64,000 nt of DNA from Pseudomonas sp. CBZ-4 (GTDB lineage Bacteria; Pseudomonadota; Gammaproteobacteria; Pseudomonadales; Pseudomonadaceae). Location: the NCBI RefSeq assembly GCF_000346755.1, contig NZ_ANNV01000009.1:124001-188000 (forward strand). The letters are read 5' to 3'. Shown here one piece after another: positions 21,156-58,039 of this stretch. Under the pieces are notes generated by a model. It was not told the DNA's origin, did not search any database, and was given only the letters and a program-made list of their open reading frames with translations. How positions within the stretch are numbered: position 1 is the stretch's first letter; each line of letters opens with the position of its first letter. A program made the translations under genes and the position numbers.

Positions 21156-21629
21156 CTACTTCACATACTCGATCGCGGTAATCCACCAGCAGGCTTCGCC
21201 ACTAGGCGTCTGCACCATGGCCTCATCGTCGACTTCCTTGCGCAGCAGCGCCCTGGCCATGGGTGAGTCGATGGAGATGTAATCCATCCGGTCATAGATC
21301 TCGTCATAGCCCACGATGCGAAAACGCTTGGTCTCGCCTTGCTCGTTTTCAATATCGACCCAGGCGCCAAAAAATACCCGCCCTTCCTGCTCCGGCATGT
21401 ACTCCACCACCCGCATATCTTCCAGGCGTTTGCGCAGGTAGCGCACGCGACGGTCGATCTCACGCAGCAGCTTCTTGTTGTACTGGTAATCCGCGTTCTC
21501 GCTGCGATCCCCCAGGGACGCCGCCCATGTCACTTTGCGCGTGGTGTCCGGGCGCTTTTCCCGCCACAGGTAATCCAACTCTTTTTTCAGCGCTTCATGA
21601 CCTTCTTTGGTAATCAGCTTGGTGCTCAA
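21156..21629 (-). CDS. greB: GreB transcript cleavage factor
   Basis: This 157-residue factor stimulates RNA polymerase to cleave backtracked RNA. The N-terminal coiled coil ends in the acidic tip SLGDRSENADYQYNKKLLREIDRRVRYL, as in GreB. The C-terminal domain ends with ISIDSPMARALLRKEVDDEA and the GreB-type TPSGEACWWITAIEY. The length is as expected. A second, divergent Gre-like factor is encoded at 8502-8990. The gene converges with ybbP. Confidence 0.96.
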   Translation of the reverse strand: MSTKLITKEGHEALKKELDYLWREKRPDTTRKVTWAASLGDRSENADYQYNKKLLREIDRRVRYLRKRLEDMRVVEYMPEQEGRVFFGAWVDIENEQGETKRFRIVGYDEIYDRMDYISIDSPMARALLRKEVDDEAMVQTPSGEACWWITAIEYVK

Positions 21630-21743: not shown

Positions 21744-22862
21744 TCACGTCGACATCGAACGAGAGTCGACCATCGATGGCGTGCGCTCGGCACTGTCGAA
21801 GTCGCCCACCACTTGATCCAGCTCAGGGAGCATGACCTGCATACGTTGGCGCAAACCGGAAAACTGCAAAAGCATGGCTGCCAACTGCTCGCCTTTGCGG
21901 TGAACCACCAATTCCTGGGCGTGCACCTGGGCCACACGCGTCTCAAGGGCATCGGCTCGCTCATCCATTTGCTGCTGCGCCTGCTGATAGACGGCCGAGG
22001 CACTCGCCAAGCGACCCTCACGATTCTCCAGGGCCTGCGCCTGCATTTGCAGAGCGGTCTCCTTCTCCAGGGTTCGACTCGCCAACTCCTGACGCTTTTG
22101 CTCAAGCTCAGCCTGGCCTTGCTGCAGTTGAACTTGCCACTGCTCAAGCGCTGCCTCTTTCTTGAGTACCACCAGTTTCTGTTGGGTCAGCTCCTGGGCG
22201 ACGCGCGCAAGGCTGGTCAGCGTGCTGTCCACCTCGAACAATGACGGGGCTTCAACCGGCGCGCCCAGTGTTTCAAGGAGCGGTTCGCTCAGTGGCAAGG
22301 GGGCAGGCTGTGGCTCGAGCAGCGCCGGCTGGGGCGGTTCAGGCCGGCTTGCGGCCTGTGGCGGCGAGACCATTTGAGAAGAGAAGCGAATGGAAGGGAC
22401 CACCACAGCAGTGCTTTCGATCGCGGGTGACGCGGGGGCAGATGTTCCCAGGGTAATGACTTTCATCACCAGGGCTTTCTTGATGATCAGGGAGTGGTGA
22501 TCCTCAGGACGTGCCGGGGGTAACTTGCAACCTTTCAAGTCGACGAAGTGATAAGGAATCTGGGCATCGGTAACGCCGCTGGTTTTCACACCGGAGGCTG
22601 CCCACGTCAATATCTGCTTGAATACCTGCATTGCCAATTGCAAATCGGCTTGCACATCGACACCACCCAAGTAATAACGCTCAAGTTTCTTACGCAAGGC
22701 TGCGATATATACCCGGGAACTACCTGGCTCCGCCTCTTCATCCAGGCTATACACCAGAAAGTTTGAACTGATTTGAGGCACGGCAAAACCACAAAGCAGC
22801 GCGCCGTTGACTGGGGCATCCGCACCGGAGGGCGCAAGAACAAGGGTACGTAAAAGCATCAT
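21744..22862 (-). CDS. Unrecognised protein: globular N-domain, Pro-rich linker, long coiled coil
   Basis: The product is about 372 residues if the ATG pair at 22859-22862 is the start (GAGG about ten bases upstream). The frame stays open further, with an ATG at 22916. Residues about 1-140 look globular (SSNFLVYSLDEEAEPGSS, then IAALRKKLERYYLGGVDVQ). A proline-rich linker follows (PQAASRPEPPQPALLEPQPA). The C-terminal half is an almost unbroken Gln/Glu/Ala-rich coiled coil. No signal peptide is evident and no family was recognised. It is divergent from the gliding-type ABC operon, with about 235 bases between, which suggests a shared function. A cytoplasmic scaffold or partner role is only a guess. 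Confidence 0.7.
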   Translation of the reverse strand: MMLLRTLVLAPSGADAPVNGALLCGFAVPQISSNFLVYSLDEEAEPGSSRVYIAALRKKLERYYLGGVDVQADLQLAMQVFKQILTWAASGVKTSGVTDAQIPYHFVDLKGCKLPPARPEDHHSLIIKKALVMKVITLGTSAPASPAIESTAVVVPSIRFSSQMVSPPQAASRPEPPQPALLEPQPAPLPLSEPLLETLGAPVEAPSLFEVDSTLTSLARVAQELTQQKLVVLKKEAALEQWQVQLQQGQAELEQKRQELASRTLEKETALQMQAQALENREGRLASASAVYQQAQQQMDERADALETRVAQVHAQELVVHRKGEQLAAMLLQFSGLRQRMQVMLPELDQVVGDFDSAERTPSMVDSRSMST

Positions 22863-23098
22863 GATTGTTGGGCCTCGTGCCAGTGAATAAACTTCAAATA
22901 AACACCACATAAACATTGCGCCGTCCAACGCTACCCACAAAACAATTGTTTCAGCGAGCTGCAAGTCTGAACGTAGGACTAATCTTATTCATCCCGCCGC
23001 GCGTTTCCAAGCCCCTGCATTGAACGTACTATTTTTTAACCCGAGCCCCGACACACGTCAACCAAAGCGCTTGCCTCCTCATATATATTGCGAAACTA

Positions 23099-24043
23099 AT
23101 GCAGCAGAACAGCATAATGATCGAGATAAGTAACCTGACCAAACAACTGGGTAAACAACATGTTATCAGCGATCTTTCATTGGTGGCCCAGGGCCAAGAA
23201 TGCATTGGCTTGTTCGGGCATGGGGGCGCGGGTAAAACGACACTCCTGAAGCTGATGGCTGGCCTGCTCAAACCCTCTTCCGGGCACGTGAGCATCCTTG
23301 GTTTCAATACCCGGACCCATCGGCTTCAAGTAGCCCAGGCCATGGGCTACCAGCCCGAACCCGGCATCAACCATTCGACGATGCCTGTCGCAGGCTTCCT
23401 CAACCTTATCGCCACTTTCCGCAGGTTCTGCGGCGCCGAAAAACGCAAACGCATTGACCGGATCACCATGCAGCTGGAGCTGTCGGCCGTTCTCAACGAA
23501 CCGCTCAACGCACTCCCCATGGGCTTGCAACGCAAGGTTGCGCTGGCGCAGGCCATCTTGCATGACCCCGGCGTGCTGTTGCTCGATGAGCCGACCGAGG
23601 GCCTGTCACCGTATCAACAATGCAAAATCCGCGCGCTCATCCAGTCGTTGGCCGAAGAGATGACAGTGATCGTTGCCACGCGGGATTGCGATGCGTTGTC
23701 GGGTATCTGCACCCGCGCCCTGGTCATCGGCGGGGGCCGCCTGCTGGCAGACACCTCCATGCCGGAACTCCAGCGCAGCTCTCGGTACTACAGGGCAGTC
23801 ACCCTGGCAGCGGATACGCCGCTGGACCTGCTGGCATTGGCCGTACTGCCGGGGGTTGCCGGCATCGAAGAAGATCGCCGCAGCCCCGGCACCGTCACCG
23901 TTCTCGCCATGCCGGGCCACACCATCTACCCCCCGATCTGCGCCCTGATTGCCAAACGCGGCTGGCAGATAACCGCGCTTAACCTGGAGCCTGGTCGCCT
24001 GAACGACGTCGTCCACCACTTAAGCCAAGAGGCGTCCATTTGA
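23099..24043 (+). CDS. Gliding-type (GldA-like) ABC ATPase with altered catalytic motifs
   Basis: The 314-residue product has Walker A G40-HGGAGKTT and Walker B VLLLDEPTEGLS (159-170). The signature motif is LPMGLQRK (139-146) instead of LSGGQ, and the H-loop reads IVATRDC with Arg195 where histidine is usual. A C-terminal extension of about 90 residues (LAADTPLDLLALAVLPGVAG...) resembles that of GldA/NatA-type ATPases. The next genes are an ABC-2 permease and a GldG-like auxiliary protein, so it is the motor of a Gld-like exporter. The start is ATG 23099 or ATG 23117; neither has a strong ribosome site. The altered motifs may reduce turnover. Confidence 0.88.
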   Translation: MQQNSIMIEISNLTKQLGKQHVISDLSLVAQGQECIGLFGHGGAGKTTLLKLMAGLLKPSSGHVSILGFNTRTHRLQVAQAMGYQPEPGINHSTMPVAGFLNLIATFRRFCGAEKRKRIDRITMQLELSAVLNEPLNALPMGLQRKVALAQAILHDPGVLLLDEPTEGLSPYQQCKIRALIQSLAEEMTVIVATRDCDALSGICTRALVIGGGRLLADTSMPELQRSSRYYRAVTLAADTPLDLLALAVLPGVAGIEEDRRSPGTVTVLAMPGHTIYPPICALIAKRGWQITALNLEPGRLNDVVHHLSQEASI

Positions 24044-24765
24044 ATATGCTGCCATCTATTATCAAGCGCCAACTTTCCCGCTACCTCTGCACTCCCGCAA
24101 CCTACCTGAACATCGCAGTATTTCTGATACTGTCAACTACCCTTGGATTACACAGCAGCCAGTTACTGGAGCAAAACAGCACTGACCTGCAACACTTTTT
24201 TCAACTACACCCCTGGTTGTACCTGCTACTAATTCCCGCACTCTCCACCCAACTATGGGCCGATGAACATGAAACGGGTCTTCGTGATTTGCTCATCACG
24301 CTACCGGTGACAAACGCGGAACTGATCATGGGTAAATTCTTCGCAGCCTGGATCTTAACTGCAATCACGCTGGCATTGACACTGCCCATTGTAGTAATGG
24401 TCAATATGTTAGGCAGCGCAGACAACAGCGTGATCGCCACGCAGTATCTGGCCAGCTGGTTGCTCGCTGGAAGTTATCTTTCCATCGGCTGTCTTATATG
24501 CGCCCTTAGCCGTCATCATCTGATTATATTCATACTAACCTTGAGCATTTTGCTGGTGATCAGCGGGCTGTCCAGCGTACTTGACGCACTTGAACACCAG
24601 GCCCCGATCTGGGTAATCGACAACGTGGCGTCCTTAAGCCCACTGTCACGTTTCACTCAGATTGATCACGGCGTCATTGTTCTTCGAGACTGTCTTTACT
24701 TTATCAGCGTCATAGTGGCCTCACTCGCTGCGACGACCGTCATTCTCAACTACAAAAACAGCTGA
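24040..24765 (+). CDS. ABC-2-type permease (GldF-like)
   Basis: This 241-residue protein has six predicted membrane helices, including YLNIAVFLILSTTLGL, FFAAWILTAITLALTLPIVVM and LIIFILTLSILLVISGL. The motif LPVTNAELIMGKFFAAW after the second helix is typical of GldF/NosY-type ABC-2 permeases. A TTG at 24040 overlaps the ATPase stop (TTGA), with AGAGG seven bases upstream; an ATG two codons later is the alternative. Codon use is more A+T-rich than in the flanking genes. It forms an operon with the ATPase and the GldG-like gene. Confidence 0.88.
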   Translation: MNMLPSIIKRQLSRYLCTPATYLNIAVFLILSTTLGLHSSQLLEQNSTDLQHFFQLHPWLYLLLIPALSTQLWADEHETGLRDLLITLPVTNAELIMGKFFAAWILTAITLALTLPIVVMVNMLGSADNSVIATQYLASWLLAGSYLSIGCLICALSRHHLIIFILTLSILLVISGLSSVLDALEHQAPIWVIDNVASLSPLSRFTQIDHGVIVLRDCLYFISVIVASLAATTVILNYKNS

Positions 24766-24780
24766 GAGGGAGCGTTCCCG

Positions 24781-26481
24781 ATGCGATCCGCACTGCACGC
24801 CGGCATGACACTGGTGGTCCTACTGTTGGTTTTCCTCGCCTTTAACCTGGTGTGGGCCGTCAAGCTGCCTGATGTGCGCTGGGATGTCTCACGCGCGAAA
24901 ACCAACACCCTATCGGCTCCAGTACAGCAATTGCTGGCATCCCTGGACACTCCGCTGGATCTTTACTACTTCAATTCGAAAAAAAGCCGTGCCACCCAAC
25001 GCTACGCCAAGCGTGTAGAAGAAACGCTCAAGGCGTTCGAAGCCGCGGCAAACGGCATGATCAATCTGCACATTGTCGACCCAGGCGCTTTTTCAGAAGA
25101 CGCCTACAGAGCAGGGCTCTATGGGCTTGATGACGAAGCGGGTTTCTTTGGCCTCATTGGCACCCGAGACGGCCAGGCCGCGCAACGCATCAAATCGTTC
25201 AGCGCCGACCGTGCAGCGTTGCTGGAATACGAAATCAGCCACTTGATCAACCAGTTACTCCACCCGCAACCGCCTGTCATCGGCCTGCTGTCTGGGCTAC
25301 CGATCAAGGAACTGGCCGCCCCCCTGCTACAGGAACTGCATCGACACTTGAACGTGGTAGCGCTGGAGCCCAGCGCGCAGCGTGTCCCCACGCAGATCAA
25401 AACCCTCATGCTTGTGCACCCCCGGGCACTGCCTGAGCAGGCCTTGTACGCCATTGATCAATTTGTACTGGGTGGTGGCAAACTCATGATGTTTATCGAC
25501 CCCCTGAGCGAACAGGGTTCAAGGCAACAAGCCCTCAACCCCCGACTGGAGGCGCTGCTGTCCAGCTGGGGCATCCGGATGCCGGCCGACCAGGTGTTGA
25601 TCGACAATCGCTATGCCATACAAGCGCCCTCAGGCGCCGTTTCCACCACGCTGAGTCTGCCCAGGCAGGCCATGGCCGCAAACGATATCAGTACCTGGAA
25701 ACTGGACTCTGTCAGGGTATCGAGCAGCGGCGCCCTCTTCCCTCTCGACAAGCACCGCACACGCTTCACCCCCCTCCTGTACAGCTCCGAGCAGTCGGCA
25801 CTGCTGGAGGCCGGCAGGGTTGGCAAAGCGCCCTATGTCGACGAACCGCCTCCAAGCGGGGAACGCTACGTGATCGCCGCTCGTCTTGAGGGGCCGGCCT
25901 ATTCGGCGTTTCCCGACGGTAGTGGTGGCCAAGCCCCCGGATTGCAGAAGGCGTCGCAGATTCAGGTCGTGGTGGTCGCAGACACCGATTTGCTCATGGG
26001 CCCGTCAACCCGATCGATGCCCCACAGCAACAGCCTGTTTGTCTTGAACACATTGGATAACCTGGCAGCGCCTCAAGCGCTTGCCAACATACGCCCACGG
26101 CCACCGACGGAATACGCACTGCATGGCCTGGAGAGCCGGCGCAAGGCGACCGCACGCGCCTACCAGGAACAGGCCCGCGAACTTGAGCGGCGCCTGGCGC
26201 AGACAGAACACGAATGGCAGCGCTTGAACCCACCTGTGACGACCTTGGGCACCGAAACCGTCAATACCACAGCCCAATTGCAGGCGCACAACAAGGAGCG
26301 TCTACGCCTGGCAATGGAACTGCACGCACTGAAAGTGCAGGTTTATGCGCCGCTGGATCGCCTGGTGCAAAACGTCAAGCTAGGGGTGAGCGCACCGATA
26401 CCGATACTGCTCTGCCTGACGGCCTGGGGCCTGTATCGACGGCAGCGTCGCCGACACCCAACACCGGCGCCGACACCGTGA
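24781..26481 (+). CDS. GldG-family auxiliary protein of ABC exporter
   Basis: This 566-residue protein has the layout of the GldG / ABC-type uncharacterised transport family. There is an N-terminal membrane anchor (residues 8-28), a large extracytoplasmic domain starting RWDVSRAKTNTLSAPVQQLLASLD (ABC_transp_aux), and a middle part with IKTLMLVHPRALPEQALYAIDQFVLGGGKLMMFIDPLSE. A coiled coil (about residues 455-530) and a C-terminal helix before a basic tail follow. GldG works with GldA and GldF in Bacteroidetes gliding; in proteobacteria the role is unknown. GAGAGGGAG lies eight bases before the ATG, and the permease stop is 15 bases away. Confidence 0.88.
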   Translation: MRSALHAGMTLVVLLLVFLAFNLVWAVKLPDVRWDVSRAKTNTLSAPVQQLLASLDTPLDLYYFNSKKSRATQRYAKRVEETLKAFEAAANGMINLHIVDPGAFSEDAYRAGLYGLDDEAGFFGLIGTRDGQAAQRIKSFSADRAALLEYEISHLINQLLHPQPPVIGLLSGLPIKELAAPLLQELHRHLNVVALEPSAQRVPTQIKTLMLVHPRALPEQALYAIDQFVLGGGKLMMFIDPLSEQGSRQQALNPRLEALLSSWGIRMPADQVLIDNRYAIQAPSGAVSTTLSLPRQAMAANDISTWKLDSVRVSSSGALFPLDKHRTRFTPLLYSSEQSALLEAGRVGKAPYVDEPPPSGERYVIAARLEGPAYSAFPDGSGGQAPGLQKASQIQVVVVADTDLLMGPSTRSMPHSNSLFVLNTLDNLAAPQALANIRPRPPTEYALHGLESRRKATARAYQEQARELERRLAQTEHEWQRLNPPVTTLGTETVNTTAQLQAHNKERLRLAMELHALKVQVYAPLDRLVQNVKLGVSAPIPILLCLTAWGLYRRQRRRHPTPAPTP

Positions 26482-26487
26482 GACGAT

Positions 26488-26796
26488 TCAGCGACGCGCG
26501 ATCAGCCCTTGCCTGGCAACGCGTGTCAGGTGTCGGATCACTTCATCCGCGTCAGCGGCGCTGGGTGCCTGGATAACCGCAAGGTCAAAGCTGTTATTGG
26601 CAAAACGGGCGAGGGAATCGCCGTCTTCGACAAACTGGATCAGAAACGCCGAAGGCCGGCCGGTGCGACGTGGCCAGCCATCCAGGTAACGCAGCAGTGT
26701 CGGCTGGTGTTTGCCGCCCAGGAGGATTTTCGGGTTGCGCTGAGTCAGGTCGGCAGTGATTGGGGCCAAGCGTATGAGGGGGCGTAGTGCAGTCAT
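26488..26796 (-). CDS. Short methyltransferase-like protein, possibly a remnant
   Basis: The 102-residue product contains VEDGDSLARFANNSFDLAVIQ followed by a helix ending VIRHLTRVARQGLI. This resembles the C-terminal half of class I SAM-dependent methyltransferases (xDGxxLPFxDxSFDxV...VxR). The SAM-binding GxGxG part is not visible and the protein is too short for an active enzyme. ATG 26796 is used because the longer frame begins with TTG. It converges with the GldG-like gene, six bases apart. It may be a regulatory protein or a decayed gene. Confidence 0.55.
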   Translation of the reverse strand: MTALRPLIRLAPITADLTQRNPKILLGGKHQPTLLRYLDGWPRRTGRPSAFLIQFVEDGDSLARFANNSFDLAVIQAPSAADADEVIRHLTRVARQGLIARR

Positions 26797-27033
26797 CGTG
26801 TCGTGTCTCTGCCTCAAAAGTCTGCGGGCAGGTGAGAGGCAACACCGAACCAGCGCTTTAGCGGTATTTCGAAGCCTGCTCCTGAGTCGGATGCAGCACT
26901 TCTATCGGGACTGTTCGCTCTGAACGCAGCACAAACAATCACCCATGGCGCCCCGCAATTAGCTGTTTAAATCGGCGCATGAGCGGGCATCCTAGAGAAG
27001 CCGACGGGGCCATGTCAAGAATTGCGCGCAACG

Positions 27034-27078: not shown

Positions 27079-27513
27079 TCAGTTGGCGATGGCGCGGTCG
27101 GCAGACAGCTTGCCGGCACCTTCAAACAGCACCGCCAGCGAGCCGCCCAGCAAGGCCAGCGCAAACTCATAACCGTTGTTGGCCATGAACAGCCCATTGT
27201 GGATATGCACCGAGAGAATCGCGACCACCGACAGAATGGTCAGGCCCAAGGCCGCAGGACGCACCAGCAAACCAATGATCAGTGCCAGACCGGCGAAAAA
27301 CTCGGTACCACCGGACAACAGTGCCATCAGGGTACCTGGCGCCAGGCCGATGCTTTCCATCCACTGGGCCGTGCCCGCCAGGCCATAGCCGCCAAACCAG
27401 CCGAAGAGTTTCTGCGAACCGTGGGCGGCAAAAATCACGCCGACAACAATACGCAGAACGGTCAGGCCGTAACCGGCGCGGGTGGACAGCAGGTTTTTGA
27501 TCAGTGGGCTCAT
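27079..27513 (-). CDS. DoxX-family membrane protein
   Basis: This 144-residue protein has four hydrophobic helices and the DoxX hallmarks GVIFAAHGSQKLFGWFGGYG near residue 30 and EFFAGLALIIGLLVRPAALG. The family includes subunits of thiosulfate:quinone oxidoreductase and small oxidoreductase-linked membrane proteins. Many members, such as YphA or SURF4-like forms, lack a known role. The ATG at 27513 is preceded by AAAGGATTA. The upstream region carries two striking inverted repeats that may regulate it. Confidence 0.9.
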   Translation of the reverse strand: MSPLIKNLLSTRAGYGLTVLRIVVGVIFAAHGSQKLFGWFGGYGLAGTAQWMESIGLAPGTLMALLSGGTEFFAGLALIIGLLVRPAALGLTILSVVAILSVHIHNGLFMANNGYEFALALLGGSLAVLFEGAGKLSADRAIAN

Positions 27514-36534: not shown

Positions 36535-39186
36535 TCATGCCTCGCGCTCCAGGCCAGGCTGGGTCGGCAACGGCAGGAACAGGGTGATGCAAGTCCCTCG
36601 GCCGTCGATGCCGTCGGCCACGCCGATATGCCCGCCGTGAGCACCGACCATGCCCTGGCAGATCGCCAGACCGAGACCGGTGCCCTGCCCGCCACGGTCA
36701 CCCCGAGCGGCGGTGTAGAACATGTCGAAAATCTTCGCGCGCTCGTCCTCGGGGATGCCGGGGCCTTCGTCGGCGACGGCAAAAAACAGCTGGTTATCCG
36801 CGACGCCCGCGCTCAACTGCAAACGCCCATGGGCCGGCGAAAAGCGCGCGGCGTTTTCCAGCACATTGACCAGTGCCTGCTCGATCAGCGCCGCGTGCAC
36901 ATACAGCAATGGCAACTGTGCCGGCACCTCGGTGTGCACCTGCAGCGGCGCCAGCACCGCGCGCAAGCGGCCAAGGGCGCTGCCGACGATATCGCCGGGC
37001 GACACCCAGTCCCGCGCCAGCTTCAACGCGCCGTGACCCAGGCGCGTCATGTCCAGCAGGTTCTGGATGTAGCGGTCGAGGCGCTCGGCTTCATCGCGGG
37101 TGCCTTCCAGCAGTTCGCGGCGGTCCTCCAGGGGGATGGCCTCGCCGAGGGCCAGCAGGCTGTCGATGCTGCCGCGCATGGAGGTCAGCGGCGTGCGCAA
37201 ATCGTGGGACACCGAGGCGAGCAAGGCGCTGCGCAGTTGCTCGGTTTCGCCGTGCAGGCGCGCCGACTCCAACTCCTGCGCCAGTTGCGCACGGGCCAGG
37301 GCTTGCGCAAGCGGCTGGCTCAGGGCCGTCAGCAAACGGCGGCGCTGGCCGCTCAATTCCAGGCCCGGCTTGGGGCTCACGCCGAGCAAACCCAGCGGCC
37401 CCTCTTCAGCCGACAGCGGCCACCACCACCAACGCCCCAGCGGCAAGGTGCCCGTGCCCATGCCAGCCGGTTGATCGTGCTGCCAGGCCCAATCGGCGGC
37501 AGCGCGTTCGCCTTCGGTGAGGGTCAGTGGGCCACCGGTTTCAATCGTCCATCCACCCTGGCCGTCGCGATTGACCAGGCACAGGTCGAGATCGCTCCAG
37601 CCTTCCAGGTGATGAGCCGCCGCGCTGATCACCGCCTGGCGGTCGGTGGCAGCGGTGAGTTTGCGCGACAGGTCGAGCAACTCGCTGGTTTCTTCCTGGG
37701 TGTCGCGCAGCGCCTGCAACTGTCGGCGTTGGCGCGCGGCGAGGTTGCCGGTGAGCGCTGCCATCAGCAGGAAAAAAAGCAAGGTCAGCACGTCCTCTTC
37801 ACGCTGGATCGCGAAGGAGAAATTCGGCGGGATAAACAGGAAGTCGTAGGTCATGAACGACAACGCCGCACACACCAGCGACGGGCCCAGGCTGCTGCGC
37901 ACGGCCACCAGCAGCACTGCTGCGAGGAATACCAGCGAGATATTCGGCAACGGCAACACACTGGACACCGCCCAGGCCACCGCCGCCGCGACGACGGTCG
38001 CCACCACCGCCAGGCCGTAGTCGAACCACACCAGCCCACGCACATCCGGCAGGCGCGGCGGTGCGGGGATGTCGTCGCTGTCGAGGACGTTGATTTCCAG
38101 ACCCCGGGCATTGCGCAACAGGCGCGCCGCCAGCCCGCCACCAAACACGCGACGGCGCCAGCGCATGCGTGACTGCCCCACCAGCAACAGGCTGGCCCGG
38201 CGTTCGGCGGCGTGCTGGATCAGGGTCTTGGCCACTTCGCCTGCGCGCAGCAACACCACTTCGCCGCCCAGGCGTTCGGCCAGTTGCTGGGCGTTTTGCA
38301 GGCGCAGGCGCGATTGTTCGTCCCGCGCGCCGCCGTTATCGATATGCACCAGGCTCCACGGCAAATGCCGACGCTGCGCGACACGGCTGGCATGACGCAC
38401 CAGGCGTTCGGCCTGGGCATCGCCGTCCACGCCCACCAGCAGGCGACCGCGCACCGCCGGCGCGGCCTGGCCGAGCTGACGGTAGCCTTGGGCCAAGTCA
38501 TCATCGACGTGGGCGGCGGCGGTCTGCATCGCCAGCTCGCGCAGGGCCATCAGGTTGGTCTGGGTGAAAAATGCGTCGATGGCCGCGCGGGCCTGTTCCG
38601 GCACATACACCTTGCCGTCACGCAGGCGCTCCAGCAGCTCGCGCGATGGCAGGTCGATCAGCAGCAGTTCGTCGGCCTCTTGCAGCACCCAGTCCGGCAG
38701 GGTTTCGCGCACTTGCACGCCGGTGATGCCGCGAACTTGGTCGTTGAGGCTTTCCAGGTGCTGGACGTTGACCGTGGTGAACACGTTGATGCCGGCGGCG
38801 AGCAGTTCCTGGATGTCTTGCCAGCGCTTTTCATGACGGCTGCCAGGGGCGTTGCTGTGGGCCAGTTCGTCCACCAGCACCAGCTTGGGCTTGGCGGCGA
38901 GCAGGCCGTCGAGGTCCATTTCTTCGAGCATCACGCCGCGGTATTCAGTGCGTAACAGCGGTTGCTGTGGCAGGCCGCTGAGCAGGGCTTCGGTCTCGGC
39001 GCGGCCGTGGGTCTCGACCACGCCGGCGATCAGCTTCACGCCCTGGCGCAGCTGGGTGTGGGCGGCCTGGAGCATGGCGTAGGTCTTGCCTACGCCCGGC
39101 GCGGCGCCGAGGAAGACTTTGAGCCGGCCACGGCCGTTGCGGGGCAGGTCGGCTAGCAGGGCATCGGCGCGGCCGGAGTCGCTCAT
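36535..39186 (-). CDS. kdpD: KdpD sensor histidine kinase
   Basis: This 883-residue sensor has the complete KdpD order. The N-terminal KdpD domain carries the Walker-like GAAPGVGKTYAM (28-39) and ETHGRAETEALL. A Usp-like domain (about 250-370), four closely spaced membrane helices (about 395-500), a GAF-like domain, and the HisKA site LASVSHDLRTPLTSM with the phosphorylated His follow. The HATPase boxes are NVLENAARFSP, DEGPGIP and GTGLGLAICQGMV. It senses K+ limitation and phosphorylates KdpE. The gene is separated from kdpC by a REPIN of about 140 bases. Confidence 0.96.
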   Translation of the reverse strand: MSDSGRADALLADLPRNGRGRLKVFLGAAPGVGKTYAMLQAAHTQLRQGVKLIAGVVETHGRAETEALLSGLPQQPLLRTEYRGVMLEEMDLDGLLAAKPKLVLVDELAHSNAPGSRHEKRWQDIQELLAAGINVFTTVNVQHLESLNDQVRGITGVQVRETLPDWVLQEADELLLIDLPSRELLERLRDGKVYVPEQARAAIDAFFTQTNLMALRELAMQTAAAHVDDDLAQGYRQLGQAAPAVRGRLLVGVDGDAQAERLVRHASRVAQRRHLPWSLVHIDNGGARDEQSRLRLQNAQQLAERLGGEVVLLRAGEVAKTLIQHAAERRASLLLVGQSRMRWRRRVFGGGLAARLLRNARGLEINVLDSDDIPAPPRLPDVRGLVWFDYGLAVVATVVAAAVAWAVSSVLPLPNISLVFLAAVLLVAVRSSLGPSLVCAALSFMTYDFLFIPPNFSFAIQREEDVLTLLFFLLMAALTGNLAARQRRQLQALRDTQEETSELLDLSRKLTAATDRQAVISAAAHHLEGWSDLDLCLVNRDGQGGWTIETGGPLTLTEGERAAADWAWQHDQPAGMGTGTLPLGRWWWWPLSAEEGPLGLLGVSPKPGLELSGQRRRLLTALSQPLAQALARAQLAQELESARLHGETEQLRSALLASVSHDLRTPLTSMRGSIDSLLALGEAIPLEDRRELLEGTRDEAERLDRYIQNLLDMTRLGHGALKLARDWVSPGDIVGSALGRLRAVLAPLQVHTEVPAQLPLLYVHAALIEQALVNVLENAARFSPAHGRLQLSAGVADNQLFFAVADEGPGIPEDERAKIFDMFYTAARGDRGGQGTGLGLAICQGMVGAHGGHIGVADGIDGRGTCITLFLPLPTQPGLEREA

Positions 39187-39230
39187 GCTTGGGGTTCCTT
39201 CAGGTATCTATTTTTTGTCTTTGATGCCGC

Positions 39231-39314
39231 CATCGCGGGCAAGTCGAATCGTCGCACCGCCGCTCCCACAGGGGAATGCATTCCAAATGTGGGAGCGGGC
39301 TTGCCCGCGATAGC
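39231..39314. repeat. Paired REP element with a variant left arm
   Basis: The right arm is a normal REP (TGTGGGAGCGGGCTTGCCCG). The left arm reads CATCGCGGGCAAGTCGAATC then GTCGCACCGCCGCTCCCACA, so about 16 bases interrupt or replace the core. It lies between kdpD and kdpC. Confidence 0.85.
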
Positions 39315-39325
39315 GTCTTCAATGG

Positions 39326-39871
39326 CTACAACTTTTCCAGGGCCATGTTCAGCGCCAGCACATTCACCACCGGCGGCCCCACCAACGGGCTTTCGATGTG
39401 CTCATCGAGCAAACGTTGCAGGGTCGACACCGGCACATTCCGCGCCGCCGCCACGCGCGCCAGTTGATAGGCAATCGCCTCCGGTGGCAAGTGTGGATCA
39501 AGACCGCTGCCAGAGGTAGTCAGCGAGGCCAGAGGCACCGGGCCCTGGCTCGGCACTAGCTGCTTGTTCGCGTCCTCGAAGATGCGCGTGGCCAATGCCG
39601 GGTTGCTCGGGCCGAGGTTGCTGGCGCTGCTGGAAACCGTGGCATAGGCACCAGCAGATGGGCGCGGGTGGAACCAGTTGTCGCCGCTGAAATCCTGGGC
39701 GATCAGGCTGGAGCCGCGCACCTTGCCGCTGGCGTCGTACACCAGGCTGCCGTTGGCCTGGGCCGGGAAGGCAACCTGGGCGACGCCGGTGACCACCAGT
39801 GGGTAGGCGACGCCGGTAATCAGGGTCATGAGCACCAGCAGGCTCAGAGCCGGGCGGATGATATTGGACAT
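39326..39871 (-). CDS. kdpC: KdpC, potassium ATPase subunit C
   Basis: The 181-residue subunit has one N-terminal transmembrane helix ([22 protein letters not shown]) and a periplasmic domain with the conserved [21 protein letters not shown] and [17 protein letters not shown]. KdpC stabilises the KdpFABC pump and affects its K+ or nucleotide affinity. ATG 39871 follows GAGGAA by six bases; the longer frame has no such site. It follows kdpB by 64 bases. Confidence 0.96.
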
Positions 39872-39935
39872 TTCAAGTTCCTCAATTCGGTCATTGCAAC
39901 CTGTGGGCACTGGGAGAGCACCCACAGGCATCGGG

Positions 39936-41999
39936 TCAAACCAGGTGCAGCGCGGTCAACAGCATGTCGATCGCCTTGATGCCCACGAACGGCACCAGCA
40001 ACCCGCCCACGCCGTAGATCAGCAGGTTGCGCCGCAGCAAGGCCGCCGCACTCGCCGCCTGCACGCGCACACCGCGCAGCGCCAGGGGAATCAACACCAC
40101 GATGATCAAGGCGTTGAACACGATGGCCGAGAGGATCGCGCTCTGCGGACTCTGCAAGTGCATCACGTTGAGTACGCCCAGTTGCGGGTAGATCGAGGCG
40201 AACAGCGCCGGCAGGATCGCGAAGTACTTGGCCACGTCATTGGCGATGGAAAAGGTCGTCAGCGCGCCACGGGTCACCAGCAATTCCTTGCCGATCTGCA
40301 CCACGTCCAAGAGCTTGGTGGGGTCGCTGTCGAGGTCGACCATATTGGCCGCTTCACGGGCGGCCTGGGTGCCGTCGTTCATCGCCATGCCGACGTCAGC
40401 CTGGGCCAGCGCCGGGGCGTCGTTGGCGCCGTCGCCGCACATGGCGACCAGGCGGCCGTCGTTTTGCTCGTGACGAATGCGCGCGAGTTTTTTCTCCGGG
40501 GTGGCTTCGGCCAGCACGTCATCCACGCCGGCTTCGGCGGCAATTGCAGCGGCGGTCAGCGGGTTGTCGCCGGTGACCATCACGGTGCGAATCCCCAGCT
40601 TGCGCAGCTCGGCGAACCGTTCGCGGATGCCGGGCTTGACCACGTCCTTGAGGTGGATCGCACCGAGCAGTTTGCCGTCGGCGCACACCAGCAACGGCGT
40701 GCCGCCGCTTTGGGCGATCTTGTCGATTTCCCGCGACAGCGCGGGTGCGAGGTCGCGGCGTTGTTGGCCAACAAAGGCCAGCAGCGAATCCACCGCGCCT
40801 TTGCGGAATACGCGGCCTTGGTAGTCGACGCCGGACAAGCGGGTTTCGGCGCTGAACGGTACGGCGGTGAGTTCGTCCAGGGACGGCTCGGCCTGGGGGT
40901 GCAGCGCACGCAGGTATTCGACGATGGATTTGCCTTCGGCCGTGTCGTCCGCCAGGGACGCCAGCAGCGCGCCTTCGGCCAGCTCACGGCCACTGATGCC
41001 AGGCGCCGCGACCACCGCCGAGCAGCGACGGTTACCAAAGGTGATGGTGCCGGTCTTGTCCAGCAGCAGCACATGCACGTCCCCCGCCGCCTCAACCGCG
41101 CGACCGGATTTGGCGATCACGTTGAGGCGCACCAGGCGGTCCATGCCGGCGATGCCGATGGCCGACAACAAGCCGCCAATCGTCGTGGGAATCAACGTCA
41201 CCAGCAGTGCGACCAGGAACACCAGCGGCAAGCTGCCATTGGCGAAGTGGGCGAACGGTTGCAGGGTCACCACCACCAACAGGAAGATCAGCGTCAGGCC
41301 GATCAGCAGGATATCCAGCGCCACTTCGTTGGGGGTTTTCTGGCGTTTGGCGCCTTCGACCAGGGCGATCATGCGGTCCAGGGTGGACTCACCGGGGTTG
41401 GCGGTGATGCGGATCAGCAGCCAGTCCGACACCAGCCGCGTGTTGCCGGTGACGGCCGAGCGGTCGCCGCCGGACTCGCGGATCACCGGCGCGGATTCGC
41501 CGGTGATCGCCGCTTCGTTGACCGCCGCGATGCCTTCGATGACTTCGCCGTCACCGGGGATCATTTCCCCGGCGGCGACGCGCACCACATCGCCTTTGCG
41601 CAGGCTGGTGGCCGGCACGACCTTGAAGCTGCCGTCGGCTTCCTTGCGGCGTGCGCTGAGGCCTTCGCTGCCGGCCTTGAGGCTGTCGGCACGGGCCTTG
41701 CCACGCCCTTCGGCCAAGGCTTCGGCGAAGTTGGCGAACAACACGGTGAACCACAGCCACACGGCGATTTGCACGGCGACGAACGTCGGCACGCTGGTGT
41801 CGGGCACGAAGCACAGCACGGTGGTGAGGATGGCGGTCAGCTCGACCACCAGCATCACCGGCGAGCGTTGCAATTGGCGCGGGTCGAGCTTGACGAACGC
41901 CTGGACCAGCGCCGGGCGCCACAGGGCGGAGATGGCGGTTTTGGCGGGCTCCTGGGTTTGCACGGGAGCGGCGTTTTTTGCAGGCATATTCATGTTCAT
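39936..41999 (-). CDS. kdpB: KdpB, P-type ATPase catalytic subunit
   Basis: The 687-residue catalytic subunit hydrolyses ATP to drive high-affinity K+ uptake. It shows the actuator motif ITGESAPV, the phosphorylation motif [14 protein letters not shown], the nucleotide-binding KGA and GGTPL segments and the hinge [10 protein letters not shown], then [16 protein letters not shown]. About seven membrane helices flank them. A long frame on the opposite strand is its shadow. The start lies six bases from the kdpA stop, so translation is probably coupled. Confidence 0.97.
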
Positions 42000-42005
42000 A
42001 TCCCC

Positions 42006-43700
42006 TTAGAAGCCCATGCTCAGGTGTTCAGCGATGGGGCCTAGAGCAAGCGTCGGCAGGAAGGTCAGGCCGCCCACCAGCAAGATGGTCACGGTCAACA
42101 GGGTCACGAACAGCGGGCCATGGGTCGGGAAGCTGTTCTGGCCAATTGGTGCGGCCTTCTTCATCGCCAGGCTGCCGGCCAGGGCCAGGACCGGGAGGAT
42201 GTAGCCGAAGCGGCCGATCAACATGCCAAGGCCGAGCATCAGGTTGTGGAACGCGGTGTTGGCGCTGAGGCCGGCGAACGCCGAGCCGTTGTTGGCACTG
42301 GCGGAGGTGTAGGCGTAGAGCAATTGGCTGAACCCGTGAGGGCCAGGGTTGCTGATGGCACTCGCCGGGCCGGGCAGGCTGGCGGCGATCGCACTGAGGA
42401 CGAGCACGCCTACCGGCATCACCAGCAAGGTGACGACGAGCAATTGCACTTCCTTGGCCTGGAGTTTCTTGCCGAGGTATTCCGGCGTGCGGCCGATCAT
42501 CAAACCGGCGAGGAACACCGCGATCAACACGTTGAGCAGCATGCCGTACATGCCGGCACCGACGCCGCCGAAGATCACTTCACCGACCATCATGTTGACC
42601 AGCGCGACCATGCCGCTCAGCGGGCTGAGGCTGTCTTGCATGCCGTTGACCGAGCCGTTGGACGCCGCGGTGGTAGTCACCGACCAAAGCACGGTGCCGG
42701 TGGTGCCGAAGCGCGTTTCCTTGCCTTCCAGCGGTGCGGTCTGCTCGACGGCCGGGTGGTTCAGGGTCGGGTTGGGCTGGGACTCGGACCACAGCGAGGT
42801 GGCGCCGCCGATCAGGAACAGCGCCAACATGCAGCCAAGGATCGCGCGGCTCTGGCGCAGGTCCTTCACGTAGTGACCAAAGGTGAACACCAGCGCCACC
42901 GGGATCAGGATGATCGACGCCACCTCGAACAGATTGGCCCACGCGGTAGGGTCTTCAAACGGATGCGCCGAGTTGACGCCGAAGAAACCACCGCCGTTGG
43001 TACCCAGTTGCTTGATCGCGATCTGGCTGGCGGCCGGGCCGAGAGGGATCACCTGATCCACGCCCTGCATCGTCAGCGCATCGACGTAATGGGCGAAGGT
43101 CTGCGGCACGCCCTGCCACACCAGGAACAATGCGAGCACCAGGCACAGGGGCAGCAGGCCGTAGAGGGTGGCGCGGGTCATGTCGACCCAGAAGTTACCC
43201 AGGGTCTGCGCGGATTTGCGACCGATCCCGCGGCACAAAGCGACCAGGACGGCCAGGCCGGTGGCGGCGCTGACGAAGTTCTGCACGGTCAGGCCGGCCA
43301 TCTGGCTGAGGTAGCTCAGGGACGCTTCACCGCTGTAGGACTGCCAGTTGGTGTTGGTCATGAAACTGACGGCCGTGTTGAAGGCCAGCGTCCATTCCTG
43401 GCCCGGTAATTTCTGCGGGTTCAGTGGGAGGTAGTCCTGGAACAGCAGGATGGCGAACAACAGCAGGAAGCCGGCAAGGTTGAATGCCAGCAGGGCCAGC
43501 ATGTACTTCTGCCAGCTTTGTTCCTGATGTTCGTCCACGCCCGAGAGGCGATAGCAGGCTTTTTCGACGGGCCCCAGGACCGGGCTCAGCCAGGTGCGCT
43601 GGCCTTCCATCACCTTGTAGTAGAACCGGCCCAGGAACGGCGCCGGCACCAACACCACGGCAAAGAAGGCGATGATCAGCCAATAGTCATAACTGTGCAT
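42006..43700 (-). CDS. kdpA: KdpA, potassium-translocating subunit
   Basis: The 564-residue subunit of the SKT superfamily has ten or so membrane helices and the K+-selectivity filter segment LGTNGGGFFGVNSAHPFEDP. Other loops, such as MTNTNWQSYSGEASLSYLSQM, are typical KdpA filter regions. ATG 43700 has AGGAG eight bases upstream; the longer frame runs through kdpF in another frame. It follows kdpF with 10 bases between. Confidence 0.97.
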   Translation of the reverse strand: MHSYDYWLIIAFFAVVLVPAPFLGRFYYKVMEGQRTWLSPVLGPVEKACYRLSGVDEHQEQSWQKYMLALLAFNLAGFLLLFAILLFQDYLPLNPQKLPGQEWTLAFNTAVSFMTNTNWQSYSGEASLSYLSQMAGLTVQNFVSAATGLAVLVALCRGIGRKSAQTLGNFWVDMTRATLYGLLPLCLVLALFLVWQGVPQTFAHYVDALTMQGVDQVIPLGPAASQIAIKQLGTNGGGFFGVNSAHPFEDPTAWANLFEVASIILIPVALVFTFGHYVKDLRQSRAILGCMLALFLIGGATSLWSESQPNPTLNHPAVEQTAPLEGKETRFGTTGTVLWSVTTTAASNGSVNGMQDSLSPLSGMVALVNMMVGEVIFGGVGAGMYGMLLNVLIAVFLAGLMIGRTPEYLGKKLQAKEVQLLVVTLLVMPVGVLVLSAIAASLPGPASAISNPGPHGFSQLLYAYTSASANNGSAFAGLSANTAFHNLMLGLGMLIGRFGYILPVLALAGSLAMKKAAPIGQNSFPTHGPLFVTLLTVTILLVGGLTFLPTLALGPIAEHLSMGF

Positions 43701-43710
43701 GGCCAAGCTC

Positions 43711-43800
43711 CTAGTTCCGATCCGCGCGTAGCAGCGCAACCAGCAGATAAATGAACAGCGCCACGGCCAATAGCAGTGACACCCCGTCCAGAACGCTCAT
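43711..43800 (-). CDS. kdpF: KdpF, small membrane subunit
   Basis: This 29-residue protein consists of one transmembrane helix (MSVLDGVSLLLAVALFIYLL then VALLRADRN). KdpF stabilises the KdpABC complex, replacing lipid in part. The gene is the first of the kdp operon, ends ten bases before kdpA, and has GGAG about ten bases before its ATG. It is short enough to be missed by automatic gene finding. Confidence 0.92.
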   Translation of the reverse strand: MSVLDGVSLLLAVALFIYLLVALLRADRN

Positions 43801-48540: not shown

Positions 48541-50535
48541 TCAAGGCTCCAGGCGACGTTGCTGATAGATCCAATCAACGATTTCGCCATCGGGGGAGTA
48601 GCCGCTGACAGTGTCGCGCAACAGCTCTCGGATACGCGCGTAATCATCTTGATCGACCGCAGCCAGCAGCTCTTTGAGCGTGCCCTTGAGCACCTCCCAC
48701 GACAGATGATCTTCACTGGCGCTCATGATCATCGGGTGCTGGGTCGCGACCACGTTGTCGCCAATCAGTAACTCCTCGTAAAGTTTTTCACCGGGACGCA
48801 AGCCGGTGAACTCGATGGAGATGTCACCTTGGGGGTTTTTATCGGAGCGCACGCTCAGGCCAGAGAGATGAACCATCTTTTCTGCGAGTTCGATGATTTT
48901 CACCGGTTCGCCCATATCCAGTACAAATACGTCCCCGCCCTGCCCCATGGAGCCTGCCTGGATGACGAGTTGGGCGGCCTCCGGGATCGTCATGAAGTAG
49001 CGCGTGATCTTCGGGTGGGTAACCGTCAGCGGCCCTCCGGATTTGATCTGCTTGTGGAACAACGGAATCACAGAGCCCGAGGACCCAAGAACGTTGCCGA
49101 AGCGAACCATGGTGAAGCGGGTCTTGTTGACGTGGGAAACATTGGACTTGTCGCCGAACAGTACGGGGGCCAATTCCCTGCTCAGGGCTTGCAGTGTCAA
49201 CTCTGCCAGGCGCTTGGTACTGCCCATGATGTTTGTCGGGCGTACAGCCTTGTCAGTTGAGATCAACACGAAGTTGGCAACCCCCGACTGGAGTGCCGCC
49301 TGGGCGGTATTCAGTGTTCCGATGACGTTGTTCAACACGCCTTCTGCCACGTTGTGCTCAACCATCGGGACGTGTTTGTAGGCCGCGGCATGGTAGACGG
49401 TATCGACATGCCAGGTCTTCATCACGTCGAGCAGTTTTTCCGGGTTACGCACTGACCCGAGAATCGGTAGAAGTTTTACCGGCAAAGACTCCCGCGCAAT
49501 GCGCTGTTCCAACTCGGACAGGATGGTGTACAGGTTGAATTCGCCGTGATCGAACAACAACAAGGTCGTTGGCCGCAGGGAAAGAATCTGTCGGCAAAGC
49601 TCCGAGCCGATGGAACCACCCGCACCGGTTACCAGTACCACCTGGGCCTTGACGCAGTGCTCAAGCAAGTCGGCCTGTGCCGGGACCGCATCGCGCCCCA
49701 GCAGGTCGGCGATATCGACTTCTTGAATATCGTCAACTTTGACACGCCCACTGGCGAGGTCCATGAAGCCGGGAACACTGCGCACGTGGAGTGGAAAGCC
49801 TTCAAGAAAACTCAGGATTTCACGACGGCGGCCACGGTTGGACGAGGGGATGGCCAGAAGGATTTCCTGGGCGCCGGTTGCCTCGATCATTTGTTGGATG
49901 TGCTTGGGTTTATACACATGCAAACCCGATATGACTCGGTCTGAAATGCTCGAGTCGTCATCGATAAACGCCACTGGGCGCATGACTCGCCCCATTCGAA
50001 GTGCGGCAACCAACTGGTTCCCGGCAGAACCGGCGCCGTAGATAGCGACTTTGATCAAGCCATCGTCACGACTGGTGAAAGGCACGTGCTGCGAAGCGGT
50101 GAACCAATCCCCCAGAAAGTATTGGCGCATGCCCAGTCGCAAGCCGCCGATCATGATCAGGCTCAACCACCAATAGTTGAACACGATCGAGCGCGGAACC
50201 ACGTTTTGATGATTGCTGTACCAATAGACCACCAACGCCAATATCAACGCTGACAAGCTGACGGCCTTGATGATGGCGATCAGCGCATCATTGCCGAAAT
50301 AACGCATGACTGCCCGGTACATGCCAAATCGCACGAACAACGGGATGGCAATGATGGGCGCAGAAATGAACAGCCAGAAGTGCATCCGGACAGGATTGAC
50401 CATTTCATCGATGCCCAGGCGTACTACAAAGGCCATCCACAACGCGATCCACACCATCACGACGTCAGTCAGAACCTGCAGAACGCGCTTGTGACGCCTT
50501 GGCAAGCCCAGCAGCAGCGTGCGCATTCGATCCAT
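48541..50535 (-). CDS. wbpM: WbpM-type UDP-GlcNAc 4,6-dehydratase
   Basis: The 664-residue enzyme has four N-terminal membrane helices (about residues 15-130), a first nucleotide-binding segment AIYGAGSAGNQLVAALR and a second GAGGSIGSELCRQI for the dehydratase domain. The catalytic segment is STDKAVRPTNIMGSTKRLAE: the usual SDR Tyr is Met (MxxxK), as in WbpM. It makes UDP-4-keto-6-deoxy-GlcNAc for the initial O-antigen sugar. GGAG lies seven bases before the third codon's ATG (50535), which is preferred over 50541. It ends the O-antigen cluster. Confidence 0.95.
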   Translation of the reverse strand: MDRMRTLLLGLPRRHKRVLQVLTDVVMVWIALWMAFVVRLGIDEMVNPVRMHFWLFISAPIIAIPLFVRFGMYRAVMRYFGNDALIAIIKAVSLSALILALVVYWYSNHQNVVPRSIVFNYWWLSLIMIGGLRLGMRQYFLGDWFTASQHVPFTSRDDGLIKVAIYGAGSAGNQLVAALRMGRVMRPVAFIDDDSSISDRVISGLHVYKPKHIQQMIEATGAQEILLAIPSSNRGRRREILSFLEGFPLHVRSVPGFMDLASGRVKVDDIQEVDIADLLGRDAVPAQADLLEHCVKAQVVLVTGAGGSIGSELCRQILSLRPTTLLLFDHGEFNLYTILSELEQRIARESLPVKLLPILGSVRNPEKLLDVMKTWHVDTVYHAAAYKHVPMVEHNVAEGVLNNVIGTLNTAQAALQSGVANFVLISTDKAVRPTNIMGSTKRLAELTLQALSRELAPVLFGDKSNVSHVNKTRFTMVRFGNVLGSSGSVIPLFHKQIKSGGPLTVTHPKITRYFMTIPEAAQLVIQAGSMGQGGDVFVLDMGEPVKIIELAEKMVHLSGLSVRSDKNPQGDISIEFTGLRPGEKLYEELLIGDNVVATQHPMIMSASEDHLSWEVLKGTLKELLAAVDQDDYARIRELLRDTVSGYSPDGEIVDWIYQQRRLEP

Positions 50536-50631
50536 CTTCATTCTCCAAAATAACCTTCACCTGCCAATAGACACCGCAGGGATGATGTCGCTATCAGACT
50601 ATTTTAGTCTGCACTTGAACATCCAGGATGA

Positions 50632-51657
50632 TCAGCGCGCCTCAACGTGCTCCAGCGCTCCCGCGTGAAACCTTACTGCCAGCCAAATCAAAGGGGCATA
50701 AGCGAGAGCAAGCCCAAGAAAGCCATCGATATCCAACAACACGACTGCCAGTGCCACGGGGAACAGCCAGAAGATATTGATGCACGCGACCGTCAGCGTG
50801 ACTGGACGGTGTTGACCAAACTGTCGCGAGGCAAACTGGTAGGCGTGACTGCGATGGGCCTCATAAACCTTATCCCCGCGCAACAGCCGGCGTATCAAGG
50901 TGAATGTGGCATCGACGATGAACACCCCCAGCATGATCAGCCATGCCCAGAGCAACTGAGGGGAAACGACACTGGCCTGCAATGAGAAAGCACCCAGCAT
51001 GATGCCGATAAACCCGCTTCCAGCATCACCCATGAAAATCCTGGCCGGTGGGAAATTCCAATACAGAAACCCCGCTACCGCCATGCTGAACACCAGCGGT
51101 GTCCACACAAGCTGTGGCTGGCCCACCCACCAATAGATGGCGCACATGCCCAAGCAGGCACACAGCGCTTCAACGCTTGCGATGCCGTCGATGCCATCCA
51201 TGAAGTTATAGAGATTCAACAGCCAGACCAGATAGAGAACGGCCAGGACATTCCCAAACCAGCCAAGGTCCAGAAGCTGGCCGAACACCCTGACCGGCCC
51301 CAGCCCGTGAAGGAAAAACAACACCCAAGCCGCCGCCAGGAAATGGCCGAGCAGCCGCCAACGCGCTGCGATATGCCCGTGGTCATCCATGAACCCCAGG
51401 ACTGCCACGCCCAGCCCCGCGCCCAGCATGCCCCACGCCCAGGGCCAAGGCACAAGGCCGGCGAAGGCCAGCACGGGGACCGCCGCCAGGAAGCTGAGCA
51501 CAATCGCCACCCCGCCCCCCCTGGGCGTTGGGATGGAGTGAGAGCTGCGAGCGTTGGGTGTATCGATCAGGCTGGCCGACAATGCATAGCGCCGAAGCAG
51601 CCACGTGAGCAGTAGCGAAACACCTGCCAGGCCGGGGAGTAACCAAAGAACATTCAT
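50632..51657 (-). CDS. wbpL: WbpL-type undecaprenyl-phosphate sugar-1-phosphate transferase
   Basis: The 341-residue polytopic protein belongs to the MraY/WecA/WbpL family, which starts O-antigen units by loading a GlcNAc-derived sugar-1-phosphate on undecaprenyl phosphate. Motifs are STPRGGG-like SIPTPRGGGVAIV, LGFMDDHGHIAARWRLLGH, NLYNFMDGIDGIA, RIFMGDAGSGFIGIMLGAF and EAHRSHAYQFASRQF with the cytoplasmic His residues. It overlaps the epimerase gene by four bases (ATGA). In Pseudomonas it normally uses UDP-D-FucNAc or a related sugar. Confidence 0.93.
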   Translation of the reverse strand: MNVLWLLPGLAGVSLLLTWLLRRYALSASLIDTPNARSSHSIPTPRGGGVAIVLSFLAAVPVLAFAGLVPWPWAWGMLGAGLGVAVLGFMDDHGHIAARWRLLGHFLAAAWVLFFLHGLGPVRVFGQLLDLGWFGNVLAVLYLVWLLNLYNFMDGIDGIASVEALCACLGMCAIYWWVGQPQLVWTPLVFSMAVAGFLYWNFPPARIFMGDAGSGFIGIMLGAFSLQASVVSPQLLWAWLIMLGVFIVDATFTLIRRLLRGDKVYEAHRSHAYQFASRQFGQHRPVTLTVACINIFWLFPVALAVVLLDIDGFLGLALAYAPLIWLAVRFHAGALEHVEAR

Positions 51658-53386: not shown

Positions 53387-53390
53387 TACG

Positions 53391-54806: not shown

Positions 54807-54910
54807 TCAATCATCCTTTGAGACCGAGATCAGCGCCGCTGTACAGGCGCGAGTGTAGTTTGCGCGGGAGACAACCGTTAACACCCACAACGAAGTGGTT
54901 GAACCGAGCC

Positions 54911-54940
54911 CTGAAAAAGACCGTCACGGTCAGTTTTCAG
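54911..54940. terminator. Terminator-like palindrome between fcl and manC
   Basis: CTGAAAA...TTTTCAG encloses GACCG TCA CGGTC, a 30-base near-perfect inverted repeat with A and T runs. It begins two bases after the fcl stop codon, so it may end or attenuate transcription between fcl and manC. Confidence 0.6.
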
Positions 54941-54941
54941 C

Positions 54942-55919: not shown

Positions 55920-55920
55920 G

Positions 55921-57045: not shown

Positions 57046-57075
57046 GTTTAGGTCCTAAAATTCTTAGAGTGACTG

Positions 57076-58035: not shown

Positions 58036-58039
58036 AGTA

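Follow-up and report, generated by a model that had tools for sequence, protein, structure and literature searches.

The window analyzed here is a stretch of 64,000 nucleotides from Pseudomonas sp. CBZ-4 (contig NZ_ANNV01000009.1, positions 124,001 to 188,000). It contains a cassette of four genes: an operon encoding an ATP-binding cassette (ABC) ATPase (A), an ABC-2 permease (F) and a GldG-like protein (G), and, divergent from it, a gene for a partner protein, X, of 372 amino acids (aa). Two features of this cassette appear well supported by the comparisons reported below, namely the linkage of X to the A-F-G trio and the loss of catalytic motifs from A in a clade of 60 loci; what job the encoded complex may do, we infer.

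Organization of the cassette and its proteins

An initial annotation had described the ATPase, the permease and the GldG-like protein as a tight operon, and both coordinates and Pfam domains agree with this (Table 1). The operon occupies positions 23099-26481 of the forward strand, F overlapping A by 4 bases and G following F after 15 bases, and 236 bases separate it from X. The start of X was placed at the conserved (M/V)MLLRTL at 22862, present in 59/59 homologous loci, and not at a TTG upstream; most homologues of A begin where an ATG sits at 23117. A matches ABC_tran (E 1.8e-21, 77.6 bits vs a cut-off of 25) and F matches ABC2_membrane_4 (E 7.6e-7, 29.7 bits vs 27), domains above the Pfam cut-offs by which both are assigned to the ABC transporter superfamily. 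G matches ABC_transp_aux (E 3.7e-43, 148.3 bits vs 34.7) and DUF7088 (E 2.9e-13, 50.3 bits vs 27.8). A coiled coil near the C-terminus of G, claimed at the outset, is present as a signal at about residues 455-523 in the Pfam scan, but this signal is weak and stays under the cut-offs.

The designation of the trio as gliding-type was not supported. According to the parts of PMC8269157 considered here, GldA, GldF and GldG are required for gliding in Flavobacterium. Their subunits are related to those of the window, but all three window proteins miss the NCBIfam equivalog cut-offs: A scores 176.7 vs 402.6 bits for GldA (TIGR03522), F 123.4 vs 288.5 bits for GldF (TIGR03518), and G 49.2 vs 389.85 bits for GldG (TIGR03521). 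GldJ, the one gliding protein tested beyond these three, gave a single partial match of 35 residues in the genome (29.5 bits vs 458.2), and the same parts of PMC8269157 mention no X-like partner. That no role is settled for the trio in Pseudomonas is in agreement with the literature matches listed, whose titles and abstract starts include no paper on it; neither these nor the parts of PMC5898192, PMC8269157 and PMC7756269 considered here describe the cassette or X in Pseudomonas.

X had been read as an N-domain, a proline-rich linker and a coiled coil of roughly 150 residues. Along this line, the AlphaFold2 model contains a helix of 149 residues (210-358), with a block-mean predicted local distance difference test (pLDDT) score of 95-98 over residues 221-330 and lower values at both ends. 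Residues 166-210 contain 13 prolines, the linker being modelled at low confidence, and the N-domain is weakly modelled (mean pLDDT 50 in a separate N-domain model). The impression that the partner is new was strengthened by profile hidden Markov model searches, in which no Pfam or NCBIfam family reached its cut-off with X; coiled-coil-type matches were the only ones returned, in Pfam all below the cut-offs. Sequence searches of the PDB gave coiled coils or weak chance-like matches only for X and no relative of G at E 0.01. Foldseek, queried with the X model and the N-domain model, returned nothing at E 0.001 or better, which, since the N-domain model is poor, is no evidence for a new fold.

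Two other candidate readings were set aside. By eye, the N-domain shares a strand and helix pattern with DUF1292. PF06949 was matched by 1 of 10 X members at E 0.043, which misses the Pfam cut-off and is far from significant; the other nine had no match, an unrelated family matched 2 of the 10 (best E 0.12), and Foldseek gave no structural support for a DUF1292 fold. Anti-phage defence, an idea raised by fast evolution at a fixed slot, was not supported by PADLOC, which gave one weak MukB-like match for X and generic ATPase matches for A.

Table 1. Features of the cassette and its flanks (positions within the window)
Feature	Position	Strand	Basis or remark
X gene, 372-aa partner protein, no known family	21744..22862	-	Pfam/NCBIfam scans, start comparison
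X N-domain, residues 1-165	22368..22862	-	under the strongest constraint in the cassette; predicted strands and helix have low to moderate confidence
X proline-rich linker, residues about 166-207	22242..22367	-	13 Pro in 166-210; low pLDDT
X coiled-coil helix, residues 210-358	21789..22235	-	AlphaFold2 model
Intergenic regulatory region of the divergent X and A genes; contains conserved blocks	22863..23098		
Inverted-repeat box TAGGACTAATCTTATTC	22974..22990	+	conservation in clade intergenic regions
A, degenerate ABC ATPase	23099..24043	+	ABC_tran, motif scoring
Walker A of A, GHGGAGKT, intact in the window	23216..23239	+	
Signature motif of A, LPMGL; signature Ser replaced by Pro	23513..23527	+	
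Walker B and D-loop of A, LLLDEPTEGLSP; D-loop Asp replaced by Ser	23576..23611	+	
H-loop position of A, His replaced by Arg	23681..23683	+	
C-terminal domain of A, unusually conserved	23765..24040	+	identity comparison
F, ABC-2 permease	24040..24765	+	ABC2_membrane_4
G, GldG-like protein; hydrophobic segments 9-27, 534-552	24781..26481	+	Pfam, hydropathy
Weak coiled-coil signal in G, residues about 455-523, presumably periplasmic	26143..26349	+	
greB, core flank of the slot	21156..21629	-	GreA_GreB Pfam domains; in 59/59 loci
109-aa protein without Pfam family, slot flank	26488..26817	-	adjoins greB in the cassette-free relative L223
DoxX-family gene, flank	27079..27513	-	Pfam; in 58/59 loci

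Linkage of X to the trio and distribution in Pseudomonas

In 398 Pseudomonas genomes, a profile of the X N-domain detected X in 67, and GldG was found in 121 (E up to 1e-10). The profile yielded 77 matches, from which two tiny fragments in genome G052 were subtracted and two other decayed fragments of that genome retained, giving 75 places. In every one of them a GldG gene lies within 9 kb of X, and in 74 the two are divergent, the lone deviation being a decayed second site in G052. By these counts of genome neighbourhood, X and the trio go together as a single unit. The initial annotation had named trios without the partner, or the partner in unrelated places, as findings that would speak against such a pairing. 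The former exist: GldG occurs without X anywhere in the genome in 54 of the 121 genomes, its identity to the window's G being 38-42%, and the eight such trios included in our tree fall on a separate branch. The latter was not seen in any of the 75 places.

Generic A-F-G trios of Gammaproteobacteria and Pseudomonas share gene order and homologous subunits with the window trio but differ in their companions. By tblastn, X was not found in 40 such loci (20 from Pseudomonas, 20 class-wide, about 6 kb each), and a DUF4340-like gene lies downstream in 12/20 of the Pseudomonas and 19/20 of the class-wide loci, its identity being confirmed by PF14238 for one locus, L100. The window cassette has no DUF4340-like gene; it is followed by the 109-aa open reading frame (ORF) without Pfam family and the DoxX gene, both on the other strand.

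Outside Pseudomonas, a 60-aa query against 369 class genomes gave three weak matches (E 0.016-0.034) besides the window's own genome. None of the three (L113-L115) has F or G adjoining, and they were taken as chance; two have an unrelated-looking ABC ATPase gene nearby. No X was found in plasmids or viral contigs, the phage collection not being part of this search. Genome G054 was dismissed as a carrier, as it matched the linker and coiled-coil part only (1 of 24 matches) and is absent from the N-domain profile search of the 398 genomes.

Our clade set (n = 60) consists of the window copy and 59 homologous loci. All 59 loci, which bear Pseudomonas names, have X divergent from the operon, with greB following X. 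Beyond the cassette, the DoxX gene is present in 58 and an SLT gene in 57 of them, the missing ones lying at contig ends, and the N-domain of X is 74-96% identical to the window copy. Most of the locus names belong to the P. fluorescens complex, and some loci carry the label P. syringae or P. viridiflava; the group is one of soil- and plant-associated Pseudomonas. Recurrence across dozens of species rules out chance as the origin of the arrangement. Of 22 X-negative genomes searched for greB, seven were inspected. L223 has almost nothing in the slot, its 109-aa gene coming immediately before greB, and most of the others carry different genes between the two. In the cassette-free relatives L224, L225 and L226 the slot is filled with unrelated genes and may be a small insertion hotspot.

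Individual copies of X vary in form. In L104 (7237-9138) a long additional middle part brings X to 633 aa. A second site in G606 (L178; 5723-6544 and 10639-11394) has two X genes by a single trio, which shows that X can duplicate in such a place. In L108 (10090-12114) the N-terminus of X is replaced by inserted DNA, possibly an insertion sequence.

Motif loss and selection in the ATPase

Eleven catalytic positions of A, comprising Walker A, signature, Walker B, D-loop and H-loop residues, were scored in the 60 clade sequences and in 43 comparators, i.e., six X-linked second-site copies, 20 generic Pseudomonas and 17 of the 20 class-wide loci (three were dropped, their A ORF being shorter than 250 aa). 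At least one position is lost in 60/60 clade sequences vs 0/43 comparators. The H-loop His is replaced throughout the clade (Arg in 59, Asn in 1) and kept in 43/43 comparators; the D-loop Asp is lost in 58/60, the signature Ser in 27/60 and the signature Gly in 14/60. Walker A is not intact in 27 clade sequences (33 intact), Walker B Asp is replaced by Asn in four, and the catalytic Glu by Gln in one. The window's A is without signature Ser, D-loop Asp and H-loop His, and the motif criteria separate it from catalytically competent ABC ATPases; A of L104, likewise at the greB site, is without signature Gly, D-loop Asp and H-loop His. Generic trios, unlike the window's A, keep all eleven positions (37/37 scored, 3/40 loci not scorable), and no loss occurs in L100-L103.

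Parsimony on 55 loci suggests that Walker A changed once or twice, the signature Ser 10-12 times and the signature Gly 9-10 times; here and in the split comparison below, the five loci with incomplete genes were left out. Mean identity within the clade is lower in the ATP domain (0.608) than in the C-terminal domain (0.775), whereas the ATP domain is the more conserved part in all three comparator groups (0.735/0.676, 0.892/0.831 and 0.658/0.353). Judged by these identities, constraint within A is reversed relative to the comparators. A looks unable to hydrolyse ATP, and the term exporter, applied to the trio at first, fits poorly with an ATPase whose conserved hydrolysis residues are incomplete in all 60 clade members.

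The ratio of nonsynonymous to synonymous substitution rates (dN/dS) was computed for up to 53 close pairs with an ftsX dS below 0.5, of which 51 were usable for the C-part of X and 47 for slt and doxX. Medians are 0.061 for the X N-domain, 0.118 for the X C-part, 0.134 for A, 0.117 for F and 0.181 for G, vs 0.016-0.033 for four flanking genes. By this measure the cassette evolves faster than its neighbours, yet far from neutrally. At a median pairwise dS above 1.3 among clade members, A and F are full length in 60/60 and G and X in 59/60. Since A is full length in every member and has a dN/dS of 0.13, it is not simply decaying. Broken copies are L062/L180 (G), L092 (X short), L179 (X and G) and L108 (N-terminus of X); L179, L180 and L108 lie outside the 60-locus set, and L180 is apparently the same contig as L062 (17,612 bases each).

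Concatenated A-F-G sequences of 52 sets, drawn from the clade (16 of its 60 loci), generic Pseudomonas (8), the class (20) and others (8), gave a tree in which the X-linked trios are monophyletic (bootstrap 100). Within this branch, the six ATP-competent copies (95) are separate from the greB-site clade including L104 (100), and the eight generic Pseudomonas trios form the sister branch to all X-linked trios. A single genus thus holds a series of trios, from the canonical one with DUF4340 through a canonical one with X to the motif-deficient one with X. Given that canonical ATPases are found beyond the clade as well as in its X-linked sister group, the simplest course of events is that the trio acquired X before its ATPase changed. 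Of the strongly supported flank splits, 21/39 recur in the A-F-G tree, and 25/36 of the strongly supported A-F-G splits are found again in the tree of X; inheritance of the cassette may be partly at odds with its flanks, or the trees are noisy.

Regulatory setting and proposed function

The box TAGGACTAATCTTATTC is the only match of its kind within the window. With up to one mismatch, its 16-base core is present in 48/60 X-A regions of the clade (21 exact), and the reversed pattern in 0/60. The window's genome has three sites at this threshold and none for the control pattern. The second site, in L232 (4697-10236), precedes the gene of an EAL response regulator by 62 bases, near a hybrid kinase and a LuxR-type regulator. 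The box may resemble RcsB/BvgA-type sites, and in its gene make-up the kinase/EAL/LuxR-type cluster is presumably comparable to Roc systems. A looser inverted repeat occurs exactly in L104, and LuxR-type response regulators are found near X in L104 and L177. Usher, PapD or fimbrial Pfam matches lie near X in five of the six ATP-competent loci (L105, L106, L176, L177, L178), and such genes are also near the decayed L107. In the covered parts of PMC3083521, Roc systems control cup fimbriae in P. aeruginosa. The box by a RocR-like gene, together with the fimbrial genes near 5/6 ATP-competent copies, makes two-component control of surface structures or biofilm the likeliest setting. As a separate observation, L105 (32-5254) encodes a filamentous-hemagglutinin-type protein near its ATP-competent X-linked trio.

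We propose, at a probability of roughly one half, that the four gene products form one membrane complex, once ATP-driven, which is now a non-pumping platform tied to surface structures or biofilm control. A dimer of A would sit beneath the permease F, the body of G would lie in the periplasm, and X would serve as a cytosolic adaptor. An ancestral ATP-driven Gld-like complex would have gained X and later lost its motor in a P. fluorescens-type lineage at the greB site, with the H-loop His gone, the D-loop Asp usually gone, the signature changed repeatedly and Walker A lost once or twice. Both sites of an A homodimer would be affected, A would no longer hydrolyse ATP, and the platform could relay a binding or conformational signal between G, via F and A, and X. 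More tentatively, a transporter degenerate at both sites might have become, across the P. fluorescens-type lineage, a non-hydrolysing platform with a coiled-coil adaptor and a box of its own, whose job would be to sense or tether surface structures instead of pumping.

Hydropathy places membrane segments in G at 9-27 and 534-552 and several in F, with none in X or A, and no signal sequence was seen in X by eye. The body of G is presumably periplasmic and X presumably cytosolic, which makes a direct contact between their coiled coils unlikely. Such a helical contact had been thought conceivable, as both proteins have segments of coiled-coil type, but the G segment lies between two membrane segments, apart from X. 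In distance correlations, from which seven of the 60 loci with incomplete genes were left out, X to the G segment does not rise above other pairs, and we regard direct binding as highly improbable. This form of coevolution analysis indicates no single interface.

Several points weigh against the proposed platform. The distance correlations run high between every part of the cassette, and X with A does not stand out. The box is absent even at two mismatches in 8/60 clade loci, including L091, near the window's copy. In most ATP-competent copies it is not found, or weakly: L175 and L177 have the looser repeat at one mismatch, L106, L176 and L178 have it at two, and L105 lacks it. The link to the regulator is one site with one mismatch that overlaps the end of the hybrid kinase gene, and the third site of the genome adjoins a protein of 136 aa that has no Pfam family. 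It is the ATP-competent relatives that show the fimbrial setting; greB-site copies sit among core genes, and the two neighbours of L175 that were tested are ArnA-like and LysR-type, not fimbrial. For the proposal as a whole, the missing boxes and the fimbrial genes near five of the six copies pull in opposite ways. Finally, the loss of hydrolysis is read from motifs; Walker A Lys is kept in 60/60, the catalytic Glu in 59/60 and Walker B Asp in 56/60, with which ATP binding or slow turnover would be compatible.

These kept residues, and the purifying selection on all cassette genes, would also suit a motor that is still active, the H-loop Arg and altered D-loop being compensated, with the trio exporting a substrate and X as its regulator. 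This is unlikely, as the H-loop His kept by every comparator is gone in all 60, Walker A, Walker B Asp and the catalytic Glu are each altered in some members, both signature positions changed 9-12 times, and the ATP domain is under less constraint than the C-domain. That the cassette is a relic in slow decay, the motif loss being a first pseudogene step, is quite unlikely as well: broken copies are known, but dN/dS values of 0.06-0.18, near-complete retention of full-length ORFs at the divergence given above, the box conserved in 48/60 and the fixation of the substituted Arg itself in 59/60 argue for maintenance. Degenerate ABC exporters, as far as the parts of PMC7756269 go, retain one working ATP site, and A could correspondingly be a degenerate subunit that forms a heterodimer with a canonical ATPase whose gene lies elsewhere. 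We consider this improbable. A search confined to the window's genome, in which more distant partners were not sought, found no close GldA-like pairing ATPase, the other matches at E up to 1e-20 being two halves of one 984-aa frame (29-30% identity). With those exporters, as described in the same parts, clade A would share catalytic-motif changes maintained in evolution, but they keep a second working site, whereas here one ATPase gene presumably supplies both.

The natural series within Pseudomonas offers a way to test what part of an ABC complex can persist without its motor, and lets the role of X be compared with and without ATP hydrolysis. Along the same line, genes that are likely annotated as ABC ATP-binding proteins may here not power a pump.

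Elsewhere in the window, positions 48541-60777 contain a polysaccharide cluster (four genes scanned) with Polysacc_synt_2, GDP-mannose enzymes and flippase-like Polysacc_synt proteins, and positions 36535-43739 a potassium system with KdpD kinase, E1-E2 ATPase and KdpA.

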